From Streptomyces sp. NBC_00582 (GTDB lineage Bacteria > Actinomycetota > Actinomycetes > Streptomycetales > Streptomycetaceae): a stretch of 64,000 bases of DNA. Position 1 is the first letter of the stretch; every line of letters begins with the position of its first letter. A program made the position numbers and the translations under genes. The DNA lies in contig NZ_CP107772.1 of assembly GCF_036345155.1 (NCBI RefSeq), forward strand, positions 7,440,001 to 7,504,000, written 5' to 3'. Under the pieces are notes generated by a model. The model was not told where the DNA came from. It worked only from the letters and a program-made list of their open reading frames with translations, and did not search any database. Of the stretch, positions 8,964 to 60,425 are shown one piece after another.

Positions 8964-10112
8964 GTGCTTCTGAAAACCTTCGGCTGGTCGTTCGCGGTCA
9001 CCGCGCTCGGCCTGGCCGCTGCGGTCTTCTACGGGGGGTGGGAGGCCTTCGGCATCGTGGCGATCCTCTCCATCCTCGAGATCTCGCTGTCGTTCGACAA
9101 CGCGGTGGTCAACGCCGGAATCCTGAAGAAGATGAACGCCTTCTGGCAGAAGATCTTCCTCACCGTCGGCGTGCTCATCGCGGTCTTCGGCATGCGGCTG
9201 GTCTTCCCCGTCGTGATCGTCGCGATCAGCGCCAAGATGGGGCCGGTCGAGGCCGTCGACCTCGCGCTCAACAACAAGGACCGCTACCAGGAGCTCGTCA
9301 CCGACGCGCACCCGGCGATCGCCGCCTTCGGTGGCATGTTCCTGCTGATGATCTTCCTCGACTTCATCTTCGAGGACCGGGACATCCAGTGGCTGCGCTG
9401 GATCGAGCGCCCGCTCGCCAAGCTCGGCAAGGTCGACATGCTGTCGGTCTGCATCGCCCTGATCGTCCTGCTGATCACCTCCTTCACCTTCGCCACCCAC
9501 GCCCACCAGCACGGCGGCGGACATGTCGACAAGGCCCAGACCGTCCTGATCGCGGGCATCGCCGGTCTGATCACCTACATGGTCGTCGGCGGTCTCTCCG
9601 GCTACTTCGAGGACAAACTCGAGGAAGAGGAGGAACGCGAGCACGAGGCGGAGGAGGAAGCCGCGCGCAGCGGCAAGCAGAAATCGCCGGTCCTGCTGGC
9701 CGGCCAGGCCGCGTTCTTCATGTTCCTCTACCTGGAAGTGCTGGACGCGTCCTTCTCCTTCGACGGTGTGATCGGCGCGTTCGCCATCACCAACGACATC
9801 GTGCTCATGGCCCTGGGCCTCGGCATCGGCGCGATGTACGTCCGTTCGCTCACGGTCTACCTGGTGCGCCAGGGCACCCTGGACGACTACGTCTACCTGG
9901 AGCACGGCGCGCACTACGCGATCGGCGCCCTCGCCGTGATCCTGATGGTCACCATCCAGTACGAGATCAACGAGGTCATCACCGGTCTCGTCGGCGTCGT
10001 CCTGATCGCCTGGTCCTTCTGGTCCTCCGTACGCCGCAACAAGGCGCTGGCGGCGGCCGAGGGAAAAGCTGAGGGCTCGGACGAGAAGACCGAGGTCTCG
10101 TCCGGGGTGTAG
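8964..10112 (+). CDS. DUF475 membrane protein, TerC superfamily
   Basis: A 382-residue integral membrane protein with about nine hydrophobic helices. Helix pairs carry acidic residues in the membrane (ILEISLSFDNAVVNA near 40-54; LEVLDASFSFDGVIGAF near 257-273), the pattern seen in TerC-like transporters of metal ions. A very charged cytosolic loop (EDKLEEEEEREHEAEEEAARSG, about 216-237) and a His-rich loop (THAHQHGGGH) near 185 could bind metal. GTG 8964 has only a weak ribosome site. TerD/TerC-type pairs are thought to act as a membrane-linked metal-sensing stress complex; that role here is inference. Confidence 0.9.
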   Translation: MLLKTFGWSFAVTALGLAAAVFYGGWEAFGIVAILSILEISLSFDNAVVNAGILKKMNAFWQKIFLTVGVLIAVFGMRLVFPVVIVAISAKMGPVEAVDLALNNKDRYQELVTDAHPAIAAFGGMFLLMIFLDFIFEDRDIQWLRWIERPLAKLGKVDMLSVCIALIVLLITSFTFATHAHQHGGGHVDKAQTVLIAGIAGLITYMVVGGLSGYFEDKLEEEEEREHEAEEEAARSGKQKSPVLLAGQAAFFMFLYLEVLDASFSFDGVIGAFAITNDIVLMALGLGIGAMYVRSLTVYLVRQGTLDDYVYLEHGAHYAIGALAVILMVTIQYEINEVITGLVGVVLIAWSFWSSVRRNKALAAAEGKAEGSDEKTEVSSGV

Positions 10113-53620: not shown

Positions 53621-54037
53621 TCAGTACCAGCCGTTCGCCTGCCAGAAGTTCCAGGCGGCGGCCGGGCTGCCGTAACGGGAGTTCATGTAGTCCAGACCCC
53701 ACTTGATCTGGGTGGCGGCGTTGGTCTTCCAGTCGGAACCGGCCGAGGCCATCTTCGAGCCCGGGAGGGCCTGGACGAGGCCGTAGGCGCCGGAGGAGGC
53801 GTTGGTGGCGCTGACGTTCCAGTTGCTCTCGTGCTTCACGATGTTGGCGAAGGCGTTGTACTGGCCGGCGTCCGGGATCATCTTGTGCGCGATCGACTGG
53901 GCCTGGGAGGCGCTGGTCACGGTGGCCGCGTGGGCCGGGGCCGCGGTCATCGCGATGCCCGCGGTGGCGGCCGCCAGGGCGACGGTGGTGAGGGCCTTCT
54001 TCGGGCTGGCGATGCGGCGGATGACGGAGACGGACAC
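53621..54037 (-). CDS. Secreted SLT-type lytic transglycosylase
   Basis: A 138-residue exported protein. The signal peptide is KALTTVALAAATAGIAMTAAPAHAA. The mature part is a compact SLT domain: IAHKMIPDAGQYNAFANIVKHESNWNVSATNASSGAYGLVQALPGSKMASAG, with the catalytic Glu in KHESNW and the GAYGLVQ motif, then NAATQIKWGLDYMNSRYGSPAAAWNFWQANGWY. It cleaves peptidoglycan glycan strands without a binding module. GTG 54037 follows AAAAAGG by 6 nt. A long structured leader precedes it. Confidence 0.9.
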   Translation of the reverse strand: MSVSVIRRIASPKKALTTVALAAATAGIAMTAAPAHAATVTSASQAQSIAHKMIPDAGQYNAFANIVKHESNWNVSATNASSGAYGLVQALPGSKMASAGSDWKTNAATQIKWGLDYMNSRYGSPAAAWNFWQANGWY

Positions 54038-54345
54038 GGAGAACCTTTTTCTTCGGGGACAGTGGCGTCGCCCGCATGCCGGAGTCACGCGGTGCGTGGC
54101 CGCTCCGCGTGAGGTGCGGTAGGTGGCTGCATGCGTCGGCGCCGAGGCCCGTGGGCTTGTCGGCGCCGTGCGACGTCATCCAGAGAAGCAGGATCGGAAG
54201 CCGTCCGCAAAGACCCCTTTTGCTAGTTGTGGCCGTACTTGGGGGGAACGCCGTTTGTGTGACCTGGCTCGCAAAGTCCAGGTCAGGGGCCCTGATGACA
54301 TGGGCATGGCGCCCGATATATACCACTAGAGTGGTTAGTAGGTGA
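54038..54345 (-). promoter_or_regulatory. Structured leader and promoter region of the transglycosylase gene
   Basis: The leader holds an inverted repeat of CGGCGCCG (54137-54144 and 54161-54168) with an inner GCCC/GGGC stem. Further upstream is a perfect 14-bp palindrome ACCACT-AG-AGTGGT (54322-54335) next to an AT-rich TATATA, a probable promoter and operator. It does not match the riboswitch classes I know. Confidence 0.4.
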
Positions 54346-54408: not shown

Positions 54409-55215
54409 TCACGGAGCGGGCGCGTCGAATGTGACCGGCGCCTCGAAGGCGGCCCGCCGCGTGGCCCGGCGCAGGGCGCGCAGGATCGCCGGGCCCACGG
54501 TCAGCGTCAGGACGACGGTCACGACCGCCCGCCCCAGGTCCCAGCCCAGCGAGGTCGCCACGCAGTACGCGACGAAACGCGCCACGTTGGCCGGGACCGC
54601 CGCGTCCGGGTCGAAGGCGACCCCCGACGCCAGCGTGCCCATGAAGGGCCAGCCCGCCAGATTCATCGCCGTGCCGTAGGCGAAGGCGCCGAGGAAGCCG
54701 TACAGCGCGAGCAGCGCCCGTTCCGCACGGCCCCGCAGACCCGCCCGGCCCGGGAGCAGGCCCGCGCCCATCGTGAACCAGCCCATCGCCAGCATCTGGA
54801 ACGGCAACCACGGACCCACCCCGCCCGTGAGCAGCGCGGACGCGAACATCGTCACCGAGCCGAGGACGAAACCGAAGCCCGGGCCGAGGACCCGGCCGCT
54901 CAGCACCATCAGGAAGAACATCGGCTCGACACCGGCCGTGCCCGCCCCGATCGGACGCAGGGCGGCCCCCGTGGCGGCGAGCACGCCCAGCATCGCGACC
55001 GCCTTCGCGCCGAGCCCGGACTCCGAGATCGTCGCCGCCACCACCGCCACCAGCAGCACCAGCAGCCCCGCGAAGAGCCAGGGGGCGTCCTGCGCGTGCG
55101 CGTTCACCGCGGAGGCCGGAGGGGCGAGGAACGGCCAGGTGAAGGCGGTCACGCCGACCGCGCCGACCAGCAGCAGCGACAGAAGGGAGCGCGGCCCCAG
55201 CGGGACGGCTTTCAC
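54409..55215 (-). CDS. ECF transporter S component, probably for cobalamin or another corrinoid
   Basis: A 268-residue membrane protein with about seven helices, larger than most S components. The pattern GVEPMFFLMVLSGRVLGPGFGFVLGSVTMFASALLTGGVGPWLPFQMLAMGWFTMGAGLLPG is typical of ECF S components, with Gly/Ala-rich helices facing the T subunit. GTG 55215 overlaps the upstream ATPase stop (GTGA) and has GGAGG upstream. It is the last gene of a five-gene unit behind a cobalamin riboswitch, from which the substrate is inferred. It lacks the CbiM N-terminal His motif, which argues against cobalt. Confidence 0.82.
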   Translation of the reverse strand: MKAVPLGPRSLLSLLLVGAVGVTAFTWPFLAPPASAVNAHAQDAPWLFAGLLVLLVAVVAATISESGLGAKAVAMLGVLAATGAALRPIGAGTAGVEPMFFLMVLSGRVLGPGFGFVLGSVTMFASALLTGGVGPWLPFQMLAMGWFTMGAGLLPGRAGLRGRAERALLALYGFLGAFAYGTAMNLAGWPFMGTLASGVAFDPDAAVPANVARFVAYCVATSLGWDLGRAVVTVVLTLTVGPAILRALRRATRRAAFEAPVTFDAPAP

Positions 55216-56891
55216 GCCAGCGCCTCCCTCACCTGCGTGACCGTGAGCCACGGCCGCGGGGCCAGGATCTTCGACACCTGCGGCGCGAAGGAGGGAGAGG
55301 AGACGACCACCTCCGCCGTCGCACCGTCGGCGATCACCTCTCCCTCCGCGAGCAGCACCACCCGGTGGGCCAGCTCGGCGGCCAGCTCCACATCGTGCGT
55401 GGCGAGGACGATCGCGTGTCCGGCCGCCGCAAGGCCGCGCACCACGGTGACCAGCCGCGCCTTCGCCGCGTAGTCCAGGCCCCGCGTCGGCTCGTCGAGC
55501 AGCAGCAGCGGCGGCCGGCCGGTCAGGACGACGGCGAGCGCGAGCGTCAGCCGCTGCCCCTCGGACAGATCGCGCGGATGGGTGCCGTCGCCGATCCCCG
55601 GGAGCAACTCACCGACCAGGTCACGGCAGGTACCGGGAACGGCCCCCGCGTCCCGGTCGGCCGCCGCGCACTCGGCGGCGACCGTGTCGGCGTACAGCAG
55701 GTCACGCGGTTCCTGCGGAACCAGCCCCACCCGGCGCACCAGCTCGCGGGGCGGTGTGCGCCGCGGGATCGCCCCGCCGACCCGGACCGTCCCGGCGGAC
55801 GGCTCCACGAGCCCGGCGAAGGCGGCGAGCAGGGTGGACTTTCCGGCGCCGTTGCGGCCCATCAGGGCGACGGTCTCACCGGGGGCGACGGTCAGGTCGA
55901 CGCTCCGCAGCGCCTGGATCCGGTCACGGCGGACGGACAGGGCGCGGGCCTCGACGGGGGGCGCGGCCACGGGGGTGGCCGGTGGTGGAGGGGTGCGGCG
56001 GAAGAGGCGGCGGGGCGGGGGAGGGGCCTGGACGAGGTGGGGTGCCGCAGGGACCCCGTGGACCCGGGGGTGGGATCCGTCGAGGCGGGCACGCAGGGCG
56101 GCCGCTCGACGCCGGGCGTCGCGCACCGTCAGCGGCAGAGGGGACCAGCCCGCCAGCCGGCCCAGGTCCACCACCGGCGGGTACACCGGCGATACGGCCA
56201 TGATCTCGGCCGGGGTGCCCAGGCGCGGGGCCGCTCCCGGTGCCGGGAGGAGGACGACCCGGTCGGCGTACTGCAGGACGCGCTCCAGACGGTGTTCCGC
56301 GAGCAGCACCGTCGTACCGAGGTCGTGGACGAGACGGAGGAGGACGGCGAGGACCTCCTCGGCGGCGGCCGGGTCGAGCGCGGAGGTCGGTTCGTCGAGG
56401 ACGAGCACGCGCGGGTGCGGGGTGAGGACCGAGCCGATCGCGACCCGCTGCTGCTGCCCACCGGAGAGCGCGGTGAGCGGACGGTCCCGCAGGGCGGCGA
56501 GGCCGAGCAGGTCGAGGGTCTCCTCGACACGGCGGCGCATCACGTCCGGGGGCAGACCGAGCGACTCCATGCCGTAGGCCAGTTCCTCCTCCACCGTGTC
56601 CGTCACGAAGTGGGACAGCGGATCCTGGCCCACCGTGCCCACGACGTCGGCGAGTTCACGCGGCTTGTGGGTACGGGTGTCCCGGCCCGCGACCGTGACC
56701 CGGCCGTGCAGGGTGCCGCCCGTGAAGTGCGGGACGAGACCGCAGACCGTACCGAGGAGCGTGGACTTGCCGACGCCGGACGGGCCCGCGAGGAGGACGA
56801 GTTCGCCCTCGGGGACGGTGAGGTCGACGTCGCGGAGGACGGGGTGGGGCGCGCCGTCGTAGGTCACGGAGACGTTCTCGAAGCGGATCAC
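55212..56891 (-). CDS. ECF transporter double ATPase (two ABC domains in one chain)
   Basis: A 559-residue fused ATPase. The first ABC domain (1-240) has Walker A GPSGVGKST (36-44), signature LSGGQQQR and Walker B VLVLDEPTSALD; the second (about 330-550) has GRNGAGKST, LSEGQRLTLAL and LLLLDEPTRGLD. A Pro-rich linker (VQAPPPPRRLFRRTPPPPATPV) lies between. Both domains look active, as in EcfA-EcfA' fusions. GTG 56891 follows AAGGAG by 8 nt, in the DNA just before the T-subunit stop. It powers the ECF module. Confidence 0.93.
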   Translation of the reverse strand: MIRFENVSVTYDGAPHPVLRDVDLTVPEGELVLLAGPSGVGKSTLLGTVCGLVPHFTGGTLHGRVTVAGRDTRTHKPRELADVVGTVGQDPLSHFVTDTVEEELAYGMESLGLPPDVMRRRVEETLDLLGLAALRDRPLTALSGGQQQRVAIGSVLTPHPRVLVLDEPTSALDPAAAEEVLAVLLRLVHDLGTTVLLAEHRLERVLQYADRVVLLPAPGAAPRLGTPAEIMAVSPVYPPVVDLGRLAGWSPLPLTVRDARRRAAALRARLDGSHPRVHGVPAAPHLVQAPPPPRRLFRRTPPPPATPVAAPPVEARALSVRRDRIQALRSVDLTVAPGETVALMGRNGAGKSTLLAAFAGLVEPSAGTVRVGGAIPRRTPPRELVRRVGLVPQEPRDLLYADTVAAECAAADRDAGAVPGTCRDLVGELLPGIGDGTHPRDLSEGQRLTLALAVVLTGRPPLLLLDEPTRGLDYAAKARLVTVVRGLAAAGHAIVLATHDVELAAELAHRVVLLAEGEVIADGATAEVVVSSPSFAPQVSKILAPRPWLTVTQVREALA

Positions 56892-58045
56892 GACGGCTGC
56901 TCCTTGTGGAGGAAGGCGGGGAGGAGGCCCAGGAGGACCGCCGCCGCGGGCCACAGGGGGAGGGCCGGCGCGGTCGGCGGCACCACGCCGGGGTGCAGGG
57001 CCGCCGGGTCCGTGGTCGCGGCGAGCGTGAGGAGCGCCGCGGTCGCCGCGCCGGACGCCGCGACGAGACAGGCGCGCGGGGTCCAGCGGTCGGGGCGGTA
57101 ACGGGTGCGGGGGGAGCGGCGGCCGCCGAGGCGCAGTCCGGCGAGCGCGGCGGCGAGACCGGCGAGGAGGAGGGGGAGGCCGTACGTCGCTCCGGCCGCG
57201 GTGAGCAGCCCGTACGTCCCCGCGCACACGCCGAGCAGGCCGCCCAGGGTGAGGGCGGTCGTCGTACGGCGGACCGGGGCGGGGAGGTCGGCGGTACGGC
57301 CGTAACCGCGGGCGTCCATCGCGGCGGCGAGGGCGACGGAGCGTTCCAGGGCGCCTTCGAGGACCGGGAGTCCCACCTGGAGCAGACCCCGGACACCGCT
57401 GTCCGGGCGGCCGCGCAGACGACGGGCGGCGCGCAGACGGTGGACGTCGGCGATGAGGTTCGGGGCGAAGGTGAGTGCCACGACGACCGCCACGCCCGTC
57501 TCGTACAGGGCGCCCGGGAGGGACTTGAGCAGACGGGAGGGGCTCGCGAGGGCGTTCGCCGCGCCGACGCAGACGAGGAGCGTGGCGAGGCGCAGGGCGT
57601 CGTAGAGGGAGAACAGGAGGGCCTCCGCGGTGACCCGGCCGCCGAGGCGGATGCCCTGGGCCCAGGCGGGGAGGGGGACCTCGGGGAGGGTGAGGAGGGT
57701 GTGGGTGCCGGGGATGGGGGAGCCGAGGGTGACGGTGAAGAGGAGACGGATGGCCATGACGACGAGCGCGAGTCTGAGGAAGGCCGGGTAGGAGCGGGCC
57801 CAGGGGGCGGGGGTTCTCGGACGGCAGGTGACCACGACGTAGGCGGAGGTGGCGAGGAGGAGGGCGAGGAGGAGGGGGTTGGTGGTGCGGGTGGCGGCCG
57901 TGCCGAGGGAGAGGGACCAGAGCCACCAGGCGCCGGGATGGATCGGGCGGGGTGGTGCGGGGGGTGGCGGCTGGGCGGGGGGCGTCCTGCCTGCCCGCGC
58001 CGGCGGGGGGCCGCCGCGCCCACCGCGGCTCGGGCGGTCAGTCAT
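56888..58045 (-). CDS. ECF transporter transmembrane (T) subunit
   Basis: A 385-residue EcfT/CbiQ-like protein. A Pro/Arg-rich cytosolic start precedes about eight helices. The two coupling motifs that touch the ATPases are HRLRAARRLRG (about 209-219) and ALAAAMDARGYGR (about 238-250, the AxxARG motif). The extra C-terminal helices are an extension beyond the usual CbiQ core. It overlaps the upstream gene by 8 bp and the ATPase start by 4 bp, so it is translationally coupled. Confidence 0.9.
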   Translation of the reverse strand: MTDRPSRGGRGGPPPARAGRTPPAQPPPPAPPRPIHPGAWWLWSLSLGTAATRTTNPLLLALLLATSAYVVVTCRPRTPAPWARSYPAFLRLALVVMAIRLLFTVTLGSPIPGTHTLLTLPEVPLPAWAQGIRLGGRVTAEALLFSLYDALRLATLLVCVGAANALASPSRLLKSLPGALYETGVAVVVALTFAPNLIADVHRLRAARRLRGRPDSGVRGLLQVGLPVLEGALERSVALAAAMDARGYGRTADLPAPVRRTTTALTLGGLLGVCAGTYGLLTAAGATYGLPLLLAGLAAALAGLRLGGRRSPRTRYRPDRWTPRACLVAASGAATAALLTLAATTDPAALHPGVVPPTAPALPLWPAAAVLLGLLPAFLHKEQPS

Positions 58046-58661
58046 TCCTCCGCCGTCGTCGTGCCTGCCATACGGCGGCCGCCGCCAGTGTCGCCACCGC
58101 TGCCGCGCCCGCGTAGATGCCCACGGAGGGGCCCGAGTCCTTGTGCGACGGGTTCTTCGTCGTCGACACCTGCTCCCCGCAGCCCGTTCTCGGGTAGCCC
58201 GCGATGGCGCACAGGAGGGCGTTCGTGTCGTAGCGGAGGGGTTTGGCGACCGTGGCGAGGGCCTCGGCCGTGGTGGCGGTCGGGGGGACCCGGGCGCACG
58301 CCCAGCGCGGGGTGGGCGGGGTCTCGCCCGAGGGGGCGTCGGACGTGGTGCCGAAGTCGATGACCAGGGCGATGCGCTTCGTGCCGGACTTCGCGGGTGT
58401 GCGGGCGCAGATCGCGCCGAAGGAGGCGGCGCCGCGGGGCCGGGACGCGTCGGAGGCGCCCTCGCTGACCGCGAAACGGAAGCCCTGGACGGTGCCGTCG
58501 GCCGGGCGGGCCGTCCCCGGGCCCTCGGTCGCGTAGGTCCAGCGGTCGCCGGTGCGTTCCCAGAAGGACCAGTAGCGGTAGCCGGTGGCGTGGGCCGGGG
58601 CGGCGGCCAACAGGAGCAGCGCGAGGACCGGCGGGAGCAGGGCGCGGGCGGGGCGGATCAC
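58038..58661 (-). CDS. Secreted, C-terminally anchored protein of the cobalamin uptake operon
   Basis: A 207-residue protein. ARALLPPVLALLLLAAAPAHA is a signal peptide; the mature domain begins GYRYWSFWERTGDRWTYATEGPGTARPADGTVQGFRFAVSEGAS and contains four Cys, probably in disulfides (FGAICART, RWACARV, NALLCAIAGYPRTGCG). A TM helix (IYAGAAAVATLAAAAVW) and RRRR tail anchor it. The function is unknown; in position it matches a partner of the alpha/alpha-repeat protein. GTG 58661 overlaps that gene's stop (GTGA). Confidence 0.8.
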   Translation of the reverse strand: MIRPARALLPPVLALLLLAAAPAHATGYRYWSFWERTGDRWTYATEGPGTARPADGTVQGFRFAVSEGASDASRPRGAASFGAICARTPAKSGTKRIALVIDFGTTSDAPSGETPPTPRWACARVPPTATTAEALATVAKPLRYDTNALLCAIAGYPRTGCGEQVSTTKNPSHKDSGPSVGIYAGAAAVATLAAAAVWQARRRRRND

Positions 58662-59986
58662 GGCTGCTGCCGCTTCCTGCCCCGGCCGATCAGGACGAGG
58701 CCGGCGATCGCGCCGACGAGGAGACCGGCGCCGACGGTCCGGACGGTGTTCAGGCCGCCGTCGTTCCCGTCGGAGGACGCCTGGGCGGCGGCGCCCGGCT
58801 CGGCGGTCTTCGTCGCGGTCCTGGTCTCGTCGACGCTCTCCGGGGCCGGGCCCGTCGCGTTGAGCAGGGCGACCAGGTCCTGCCCGCCGAAGTCGTGGAC
58901 GTCGCCGTCCCGTGCGGCGCTCGCCGCGAGGACGAGCTGCGCGTACGCGGCCGGTCCGGCCTGGGCGGCCCAGTCGGCGGAGTGGGCCTCCAGCCAGCGC
59001 AGGGGTGCGGCGGCCTGGTCGTTGAGGTGGGCGCAGGACAGGGCGACGACCGCGTCGGCGGTGTTGCCGTAGTCGGGCTGGTCGCCGGCGCCGGGCAGCG
59101 CGGACGTGAGGTGACCGTCCTCGGCGAGGGTCTTGGCGAGCCAGGCGGCGCCGTTGGCCGCGGTCCGCTCGGGCTCGTCGGCCTGCTCGCAGCGCGGCGC
59201 GGACGTGGCGTCGTCCTGACGGGTCACGGCCAGACTCTCGCCGCCCAGGCCGAGCACGGCCGCCGCCGTCGCGTCCGCGTTGGCCACGAGGGCGCCCTTC
59301 TTGTCGGGCTGGTGGGCGAAGGCGCCGGCGTCCTCGCCCGTGCAGGGCAGGGCGAGCTTCGTGAGGGCGTCGAACGGGGACCTGCCGTTCTTGCGGACGT
59401 TCGGAACGGTCTCGCCGGCCTGGGCGAGCGCGCCGATGACGACCGACGTGGAGTTGGCGTCGGTGGCCCCGCCGGGGGAGTAGCCCCAGCCGCCGTCCGC
59501 GTTCTGGACCGACTTCAGCCAGGCCACGCTCTTGTCGACCTGGGCCTCGTGGCCACCGATCTCCGCCAGCGCCTGGACGGCGGCACCGGTGCTGTTGGTG
59601 TCGACCGTCGTCCTGGCGTCGCAGGCCTTCGCCGGGTCCGCGCGGAACGCGGCGAACGAACCGTCCGCGCACTGCTGCCCCGCCAGCCAGGCCACCGACT
59701 CGCGCGCGGGCCACACGCCCACCGTGCGCTGGGCGAGCAGTGCCAGCGACTGGCGCCACACACCGTCGTACGTCGGATCGGCGGTGCCGTACAGACCCAC
59801 GGGCAGGGCGACCGACGCGGACGGGGAGGGGCCGGCGGCGACGGCGGGGGCGGAGGCACCGATCAGGGCGAGGACGGTCGCGGCGGCCGCCGTCACGGTG
59901 GCGGTGGCCATGGCGGTCGCCGTGGCGGTAGTGGTCGCGTGGGCGCCGATGGCCAGGGCGGCCGCGGCGCTGCGGCGGGACTTCAT
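58658..59986 (-). CDS. Secreted, anchored alpha/alpha-repeat protein (transcobalamin-like) of the cobalamin uptake operon
   Basis: A 442-residue protein. After a signal peptide (ending APAVAA near 52), residues about 60-375 carry prenyltransferase/squalene-cyclase-type alpha-helix-pair repeats: SVAWLAGQQCADGSFAAF, TTVDTNSTGAAVQALAEIGG, SVAWLKSVQNADGGWGYSPG, ATDANSTSVVIGALAQAG, GNTADAVVALSCAHL. The same alpha6/alpha6 barrel is the cobalamin-binding domain of animal intrinsic factor and transcobalamin. A Thr/Ala/Ser stalk, a TM helix (TVGAGLLVGAIAGLVLIG) and basic tail follow. Its place directly behind a cobalamin riboswitch supports corrinoid binding at the surface; this is inference. Confidence 0.8.
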   Translation of the reverse strand: MKSRRSAAAALAIGAHATTTATATAMATATVTAAAATVLALIGASAPAVAAGPSPSASVALPVGLYGTADPTYDGVWRQSLALLAQRTVGVWPARESVAWLAGQQCADGSFAAFRADPAKACDARTTVDTNSTGAAVQALAEIGGHEAQVDKSVAWLKSVQNADGGWGYSPGGATDANSTSVVIGALAQAGETVPNVRKNGRSPFDALTKLALPCTGEDAGAFAHQPDKKGALVANADATAAAVLGLGGESLAVTRQDDATSAPRCEQADEPERTAANGAAWLAKTLAEDGHLTSALPGAGDQPDYGNTADAVVALSCAHLNDQAAAPLRWLEAHSADWAAQAGPAAYAQLVLAASAARDGDVHDFGGQDLVALLNATGPAPESVDETRTATKTAEPGAAAQASSDGNDGGLNTVRTVGAGLLVGAIAGLVLIGRGRKRQQP

Positions 59987-60009
59987 GATCGGCGGATGCC
60001 TCTCCCGGT

Positions 60010-60235
60010 CGGGAGGTCCGCAGGCCGGGCAGCACGGGACACCCCGGCGGCTCGACTCCGTAGACCTCGACGGTGCCGTACGACGGCGGGCCGCCGCGCA
60101 CGTGAGCCGGTCAACGTCCGTACGGGGCGGTCCGGCTCACCACCGGTGGTGGCTCACGGTTGCGGGTCAGCGCCGGAATTGCACCGGCTTCCCCCTGTAC
60201 GGGTGATGACGACCCGGTCACTCTACCGGCTGGTA
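60010..60235 (-). ncRNA. Cobalamin riboswitch
   Basis: On the minus strand the conserved core is present in full: AGGGGGAAGCCGGTGCAATT, then CCGGCGCTGACCCGCAACCG (plus-strand 60157-60196), which corresponds to the GGGAA, GCCGGTGCAA and CCCGCNACYGT blocks of the class. A perfect 9-bp stem (GTGAGCCGG at 60102-60110 with CCGGCTCAC at 60132-60140) is a peripheral helix. The ATG of the first operon gene is 23 nt beyond the downstream edge. With cobalamin bound, expression should fall. The outer limits are approximate. Confidence 0.92.
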
Positions 60236-60425
60236 GCCAGGACTCTGAGGGGTGGCTGTGAGACCTTCGCCGCAGCTCGACGCACCCCGCCGGGTTCTGG
60301 CCATGACCACGAGCTCGAGGAGGCGTGGGTGGTGCCCCGGGGACCGTGAGGGCTGGTCCGAGGCGGCCGCCGAGGCGGCGGTCATGGCGCGCGGACGGCG
60401 GCACGGCGTGCCGCCTGCCGGGGCA

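Follow-up and report, generated by a model that had tools for sequence, protein, structure and literature searches.

A cobalamin riboswitch leads a Streptomyces operon predicted to couple two circularly permuted, transcobalamin-like surface proteins to an ECF importer

To our knowledge, energy-coupling factor (ECF) importers are usually described as working without a separate extracellular binding protein. CbrT operates with a shared ECF module, and we know of no surface binding proteins for it. The solved structure 6FNP is that of ECF-CbrT, a cobalamin importer (PMC5997447). Burroughs et al. 2007 (PMC1796856) proposed that vitamin B12 is scavenged by secreted SLBB proteins of the transcobalamin type, in many cases fused to an alpha/alpha toroid and as a rule encoded together with CbiO and CbiQ; transcobalamin itself is described there as sandwiching its ligand between its two domains. 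Here we describe a five-gene operon behind a cobalamin riboswitch in the window, a 64,000-nucleotide stretch of the 11.1-Mb genome of Streptomyces sp. NBC_00582 (G000:C1:7440001-7504000). We consider it likely that this is a cobalamin-repressed operon for corrinoid capture and import, with binding and transport predicted from sequence, because the system is associated with cobalamin riboswitches across the phylum and its S component is linked transitively to CbrT.

As in the kind of system proposed in 2007, a secreted beta-grasp domain and a toroid, fused or neighbouring, occur together with genes for a CbiO-like ATPase and a CbiQ-like membrane protein. Whereas that clade was placed in low-GC Gram-positives and planctomycetes and, more rarely, in euryarchaea, here it is Streptomyces and further members of the same phylum that carry the system; it also differs from that description in its two-gene split, the rotation of both domains, the presence of a riboswitch and the identification of an S component. 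An earlier note on this DNA had proposed a corrinoid importer of the ECF type, served by dedicated binding proteins on the cell surface, in an arrangement not seen in the standard BtuFCD or CbrT systems. Regulation and the link of the S component to CbrT support the importer, but the general kind is not new, having already been proposed in 2007 (PMC1796856); what is new relative to that prediction is the lineage, the two-gene split with its double permutation, the riboswitch statistics and the relation to CbrT. The note also did not recognise the secreted proteins, which resemble the two transcobalamin/intrinsic factor domains, each circularly permuted. Like the animal carriers transcobalamin and intrinsic factor, the system has one toroid and one beta-grasp domain, and the corrinoid sandwich known there is proposed here; unlike them, it comprises two chains, is predicted to be membrane-tethered and is permuted, and the sequence link is weak. 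With ECF-CbrT (6FNP; PMC5997447) it shares the ECF type of importer and an S component related through intermediates, whereas the window operon encodes its own module, with A and A' fused, and adds two surface proteins. With BtuFCD it shares a probable substrate and a capture step ahead of the membrane; the four non-ATPase proteins matched no BtuF or BtuC family in Pfam or NCBIfam, and the operon does not classify as a BtuFCD system. Among the best 25 of 43 and of 230 matches of the ATPase, there was one corrinoid ABC ATPase model, at 211 bits against a cut-off of 537 bits. SCO2322-SCO2325 and GPS-CTERM were not found in an open-access library and SCO2321 had an unrelated mention only, which does not establish absence from print; the part at hand of a review of cobalamin resources (PMC8123684) holds nothing on the operon.

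All five genes lie on the reverse strand. Gene 1 (58658..59986) encodes an SCO2321-family alpha/alpha toroid protein, with its toroid domain at 58841-59806, and gene 2 (58038..58661) encodes an SCO2322-family protein with a GPS-CTERM tail and a beta-grasp (SLBB/DUF4430-like) domain at 58164-58586. Both have hydrophobic stretches at the N- and C-terminus, the latter followed by an Arg-rich end, and look, as far as sequence can tell, secreted and anchored in the membrane by the C-terminus. Gene 3 (56888..58045) encodes an EcfT-type transmembrane (T) subunit of the CbiQ family (PF02361, E 3e-6, 27.4 bits, cut-off 25), gene 4 (55212..56891) a fused double ECF ATPase (A-A'; two stretches of PF00005, 186 bits) and gene 5 (54409..55215) an ECF S component (PF12822, 31.3 bits against a cut-off of 30.7). 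The same-strand layout and the list of products given in the earlier note were both borne out, the former by coordinates, with 4-base GTGA overlaps at joints 1-2, 3-4 and 4-5 and an 8-base overlap at joint 2-3, and the latter by Pfam and NCBIfam. We retrieved 532 relatives, and conservation was counted in the best 80, every one of which was titled Streptomyces. In this neighbourhood survey, which the note had suggested for the two secreted proteins, genes 1 and 2 were adjacent in 80/80 loci, mostly with ECF genes (T in 77, A-A' in 72 and S in 67 of the 80). Such conservation among the best 80 of 532 relatives argues that the five-gene arrangement is not due to chance. Twelve of the 13 loci without S are shortened loci at contig ends; the exception, L074, is a full 18.6-kb locus that keeps SCO2321 and SCO2322 while T, A-A' and S are all missing. 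In L074, the 9 kb that follow, after position 9588, hold no T, A-A' or S.

The leader of the operon (60068..60245, reverse strand) matched the cobalamin riboswitch model RF00174 over all 189 model positions (cmscan, 37 bits, E 9e-6), exceeding the gathering score of 31.5. The covariance-model search proposed in the earlier note thus upheld its claim of a cobalamin riboswitch. A hairpin, CTCCC-GACC-GGGAG, running into GAGAGG, was read from the sequence at 59999..60015 on the same strand, 12 bases before the start codon, and may mask the ribosome-binding site of the first gene. By eye and without a statistical test, a comparable CTCCC..GGGAG or CTCCT..AGGAG element was seen in most of the leaders of Streptomyces relatives displayed; 52 of 64 sequences went into the alignment of leaders. 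The riboswitch core motif was present upstream of SCO2321 in 63/80 Streptomyces loci.

To place this association in a wider setting, we surveyed 296 genomes of the phylum, in 44 of which SCO2322_fam matched (above cut-off in 10), counting RF00174 matches at E up to 1e-3, some of them below the gathering score. Outside the genus, RF00174 lay on the same strand within 5 kb upstream of an SCO2322-like gene in 31 of 35 genomes, where 0.04 would be expected; the four genomes without such a match were G002, G022, G225 and G242. Within the genus, 40 of 41 genomes carried the SCO2322 gene. RF00174 was examined in 22 of these 41 genomes, 21 of them with the SCO2322 gene; in 15 of the 21, a match preceded the SCO2322 domain at a distance of 1.4-1.6 kb. 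The one Streptomyces genome without an SCO2322 match, G308, nonetheless has four RF00174 matches. Four genomes (G102, G134, G166 and G284) have the toroid match apart from the beta and ECF genes, on different contigs in three and at a distance of about 860 kb in G284; each of the eight split sites has a riboswitch 0.4-0.6 kb ahead of the matched domain. That toroid and beta genes should each stand under a cobalamin switch when apart would be difficult to account for if either had nothing to do with the vitamin. From 20 relative loci that were fetched, 15 contained a gene matching the window S component, and RF00174 was upstream on the same strand in 14 of these, although at only 24 bits in G062.

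The genome of the window has five RF00174 sites. The four besides that of the operon precede NicO, cobD/cobQ/cobN, the large and small chains of ribonucleotide reductase, and CbtA. As these switches lead metal uptake, synthesis and ribonucleotide reductase, the operon is left as the riboswitch-led unit that could import finished corrinoid, and it is the sole candidate for corrinoid uptake among the riboswitch-led units of this genome. A reannotation of S. lividans places cobalamin riboswitches before cbiM and before cobD (PMC8079986).

The import module itself was identified by PF02361, two PF00005 stretches and PF12822, each above its cut-off; the NCBIfam ECF_ATPase models scored 290 and 284 bits on gene 4, below their cut-offs of 330 and 315. 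The window S component matched the S components of two other genomes, G176 and G079, at E 4e-15 and 5e-15 among 1029 reading frames. That of G176 by itself found 6fnp_A at E 1.2e-12, the sole PDB chain below E 0.1, and the same chain was matched at E 1.6e-14 by a profile built from ten S components, among them those of G176 and G079, which come from DUF4430 operons. We take this 182-residue chain to be CbrT. By contrast, the direct link is weak: in hhalign, the close-family S profile scored 23.7 against CbrT, the best of 100 shuffles reaching 21.1. Since the window S component reaches 6fnp_A only through S components of the G176/G079 type, the link is transitive, and it suggests that the window S is a distant relative of CbrT.

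Relatives outside the five-gene layout show the same parts in other combinations. In G258, a single 815-aa frame combines a toroid, a normal-order beta domain and cell-wall-binding repeats; behind it come another beta gene, T, A-A' and S. G309 has a 984-aa beta-toroid-toroid frame. In G176 and G079 the gene order is DUF4430-T-AA'-S-toroid, with a DUF4430 protein in the beta position and with A-A' and S homologous to those of the window; RF00174 (104 and 113 bits) precedes these genes by about 3 kb, with a large beta-propeller protein encoded in the gap. Between riboswitch and DUF4430 gene, L158 (12379-14988, reverse strand) and L159 (1449-4124, forward strand) encode an 870-890-residue protein with PQQ_2 beta-propeller and DUF5719, which is perhaps a further surface component of the system. 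In G040 (G040:C203:4034-4207), a DUF4430 match has the riboswitch on one side and the toroid and SCO2322-like genes on the other; both beta families can therefore share one operon.

The gene 2 protein matched SCO2322_fam (NF040672) at 228.4 bits against a cut-off of 85 and GPS-CTERM (NF040681) at 29.2 bits against 28. In the phylum survey, the halves of the SCO2322 profile appeared in swapped order in G134 and G284, because the relatives and the Streptomyces proteins order their blocks differently: normal-order relatives run from strands S1 and S2 through a helix (H) and a Cys-containing hairpin to a YWSYW...W...GWxF block, whereas the window and Streptomyces SCO2322 proteins start with the YWSYW block. 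Against a profile of normal-order beta domains (A4; 17 of 20 extracted relatives, 129 positions), the unrotated window domain scored 38.9 bits over positions 73-124, half of the profile, and rotation at residue 60-66 raised this to 64.0 bits over positions 3-124 of 129. The doubled sequence scored 61.3 bits across the join. Of 200 shuffles drawn, 172 single ones returned a score (maximum 8.9), as did 114 doubled ones. With hhalign, rotation lifted the aligned columns between 80 permuted sequences (window plus 79 loci) and the normal-order family from 57 to 118; the SCO2322 alignment used 79 of the 80 loci. The predicted structure (predicted local distance difference test score, pLDDT, 75.7) has strands at 4-12, 15-18, 32-40, 70-77 and 94-100 and a helix at 106-117, which, together with the rotation tests, is consistent with a beta-grasp domain whose elements run S3-S4-S5-S1-S2-H. 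The gene 2 beta domain is circularly permuted relative to most relatives examined. Transcobalamin-type SLBB domains have the strand order S1-S2-H-insert-S3-S4-S5, from which the window domain departs and which the normal-order relatives keep. In G062, from another family within the same class, the beta domain is likewise permuted, and an SCO2321-family match is absent. For the beta-grasp fold, one paper notes permutation in the E1/UFD domain (PMC1949818).

The toroid of gene 1 matched SCO2321_fam at 536.8 bits (NCBIfam cut-off 300) and the Pfam Prenyltrans toroid at 26.8 bits (cut-off 26.5). PF01122, the eukaryotic cobalamin-binding toroid family, did not match the window toroid at E up to 10. 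A profile of 291 positions was built from 12 of 15 extracted relatives, omitting L162, L147 and L152; L162 and the G108 match have the Streptomyces order, and the profile was deliberately built from the other order. Unrotated, the window toroid matched it in two pieces of 127 and 49 bits; after rotation by 190-210 residues it gave a single match of 183 bits over positions 3-290 of 291, the maximum of 200 shuffles being 9.9. BLASTP against G134 likewise aligned the window toroid in swapped order (residues 64-280 and 269-378 against 149-382 and 34-142). The gene 1 toroid is circularly permuted relative to most relatives examined. In G194, the toroid is collinear with the Streptomyces toroid by BLASTP and the beta domain is in normal order; the toroid order has therefore changed independently of the beta order. 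The SCO2321 structure alignment used 37/80 loci, chosen for simple sequence landmarks.

Since a toroid consists of similar helical hairpins, its permutation might be a mere slip of the repeat register, so that only the beta domain would be truly permuted. Weaker out-of-register matches do occur, as in a third BLASTP segment for G134 and G204, but the gain from the best unrotated piece to the near-complete rotated match, with pieces that lie end to end, makes such a slip unlikely. The closest solved relatives of the toroid, by sequence and by fold, are terpene cyclases, which lends something to the view that the surface proteins bind no ligand, the toroid being a terpene-cyclase-type enzyme or a wall-processing protein co-regulated through an accident of operon history. 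We regard this as very improbable, given that the toroid looks secreted, is naturally fused to a beta domain in relatives and, in four genomes, has its own cobalamin riboswitch away from the transporter. The cargo could also be cobalt, or else a small precursor of B12, for instance the lower-ligand base, the riboswitch merely reflecting the B12 supply; the T subunit does belong to the CbiQ (cobalt transport) family, and metal transporters, NicO and CbtA, are found in two of the four other riboswitch-led units of the genome. However, the S component matches PF12822 alone, with the CbiM model absent from its Pfam matches at E up to 10, and a related S component matches CbrT. NicO and CbtA already cover metal uptake, and a large transcobalamin-like clamp would seem out of proportion to a metal ion. 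We therefore consider import of cobalt or a precursor improbable, and import of a corrinoid remains the preferred reading.

Several results nevertheless weigh against import of a corrinoid by transcobalamin-like proteins. No protein of the operon has direct similarity to a proven B12 binder, and the relatives of A-A' or T by themselves are also compatible with a metal importer. The window S component alone matches nothing in the PDB, and a profile of S components lacking members from DUF4430 operons finds nothing relevant there and misses CbrT. PF01122 was detected in just 2/10 toroid proteins, both times below cut-off (E 0.0058 and 0.24). For the beta domain, fold searches with the predicted SCO2322 model gave no match, and PF14478 (DUF4430) was unmatched at E up to 10 in 10 sequences, including the window domain, rotated and unrotated, and five normal-order relatives. 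The normal-order beta family matched DUF4430 weakly in hhalign (E 0.0017, score 23.3; maximum of 150 column shuffles 21.3), and the DUF4430 alignment, made without L121 and L127 at contig ends, still scored 21.9 when rotated by 30. As PF14478 is unmatched and the strand order differs, the window domain is not classed as a member of the transcobalamin-type SLBB/DUF4430 group, although it may function like one. On the side of regulation, the full core motif was lacking, by our own motif patterns, in 17/80 Streptomyces loci, and RF00174 was missed in 6 of the 21 Streptomyces genomes, a laxer scan giving weak matches (21.1 and 19.7 bits) in two of the six. Finally, the fifteenth fetched locus with an S gene, G171, has its nearest riboswitch on the opposite strand; with RF00174 on the same strand in the other 14, the possibility raised in the earlier note that homologues of the S component always accompany another vitamin did not materialise.

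The proposed mechanism for corrinoid import is as follows. Tethered at the outer face of the membrane, the toroid of SCO2321 and the beta-grasp domain of SCO2322 would close around one corrinoid in the manner of transcobalamin and intrinsic factor and deliver it to the CbrT-like S component; using ATP, the T/A-A' module would then re-orient this component, bringing the corrinoid into the cell. When corrinoid is plentiful, the leader would fold such that the hairpin at 59999-60015 covers the ribosome-binding site of gene 1, switching the operon off. A more tentative proposal, which we hold to be somewhat more doubtful than probable, is that nearly every Streptomyces (40/41 sampled) has a two-chain, doubly permuted counterpart of intrinsic factor whose halves form a stable assembly only with a corrinoid between them and then dock to the CbrT-like S component, the ligand-closed clamp acting as the selectivity filter of the ECF importer.

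If the corrinoid reading is true, Streptomyces gain a named B12 scavenging system, two NCBIfam families with function-free names become tied to corrinoid uptake, and a surface clamp is seen to feed an ECF importer. The pair would also be a rare natural set of circular permutants in which to ask how the order of elements affects transcobalamin-like binding, and it would bear on the proposed bacterial origin of the animal B12 carriers.

Some further observations were made. At least seven of the 17 loci without a full core motif (L037, L058, L063, L079, L089, L095 and L100) keep the 5' part of the riboswitch (GAAGCCGGTGCAA..), followed by CCCTTCC or CCCTCCCCC, and the aptamer there looks as if reduced to a short stem. 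L146 (G204:C1:668000-687000) has four RF00174 matches on the reverse strand and one on the forward strand within about 12 kb, together with two toroid genes, two beta genes and an ECF cassette. In two genomes within the genus, G309 (L165) and G171 (L157), the conserved permuted system is accompanied by an accessory second copy with normal-order beta domains. Just downstream of the operon in the window, 53621-54088 (reverse strand) encodes a small secreted protein that resembles, by eye, a lysozyme-like transglycosylase.

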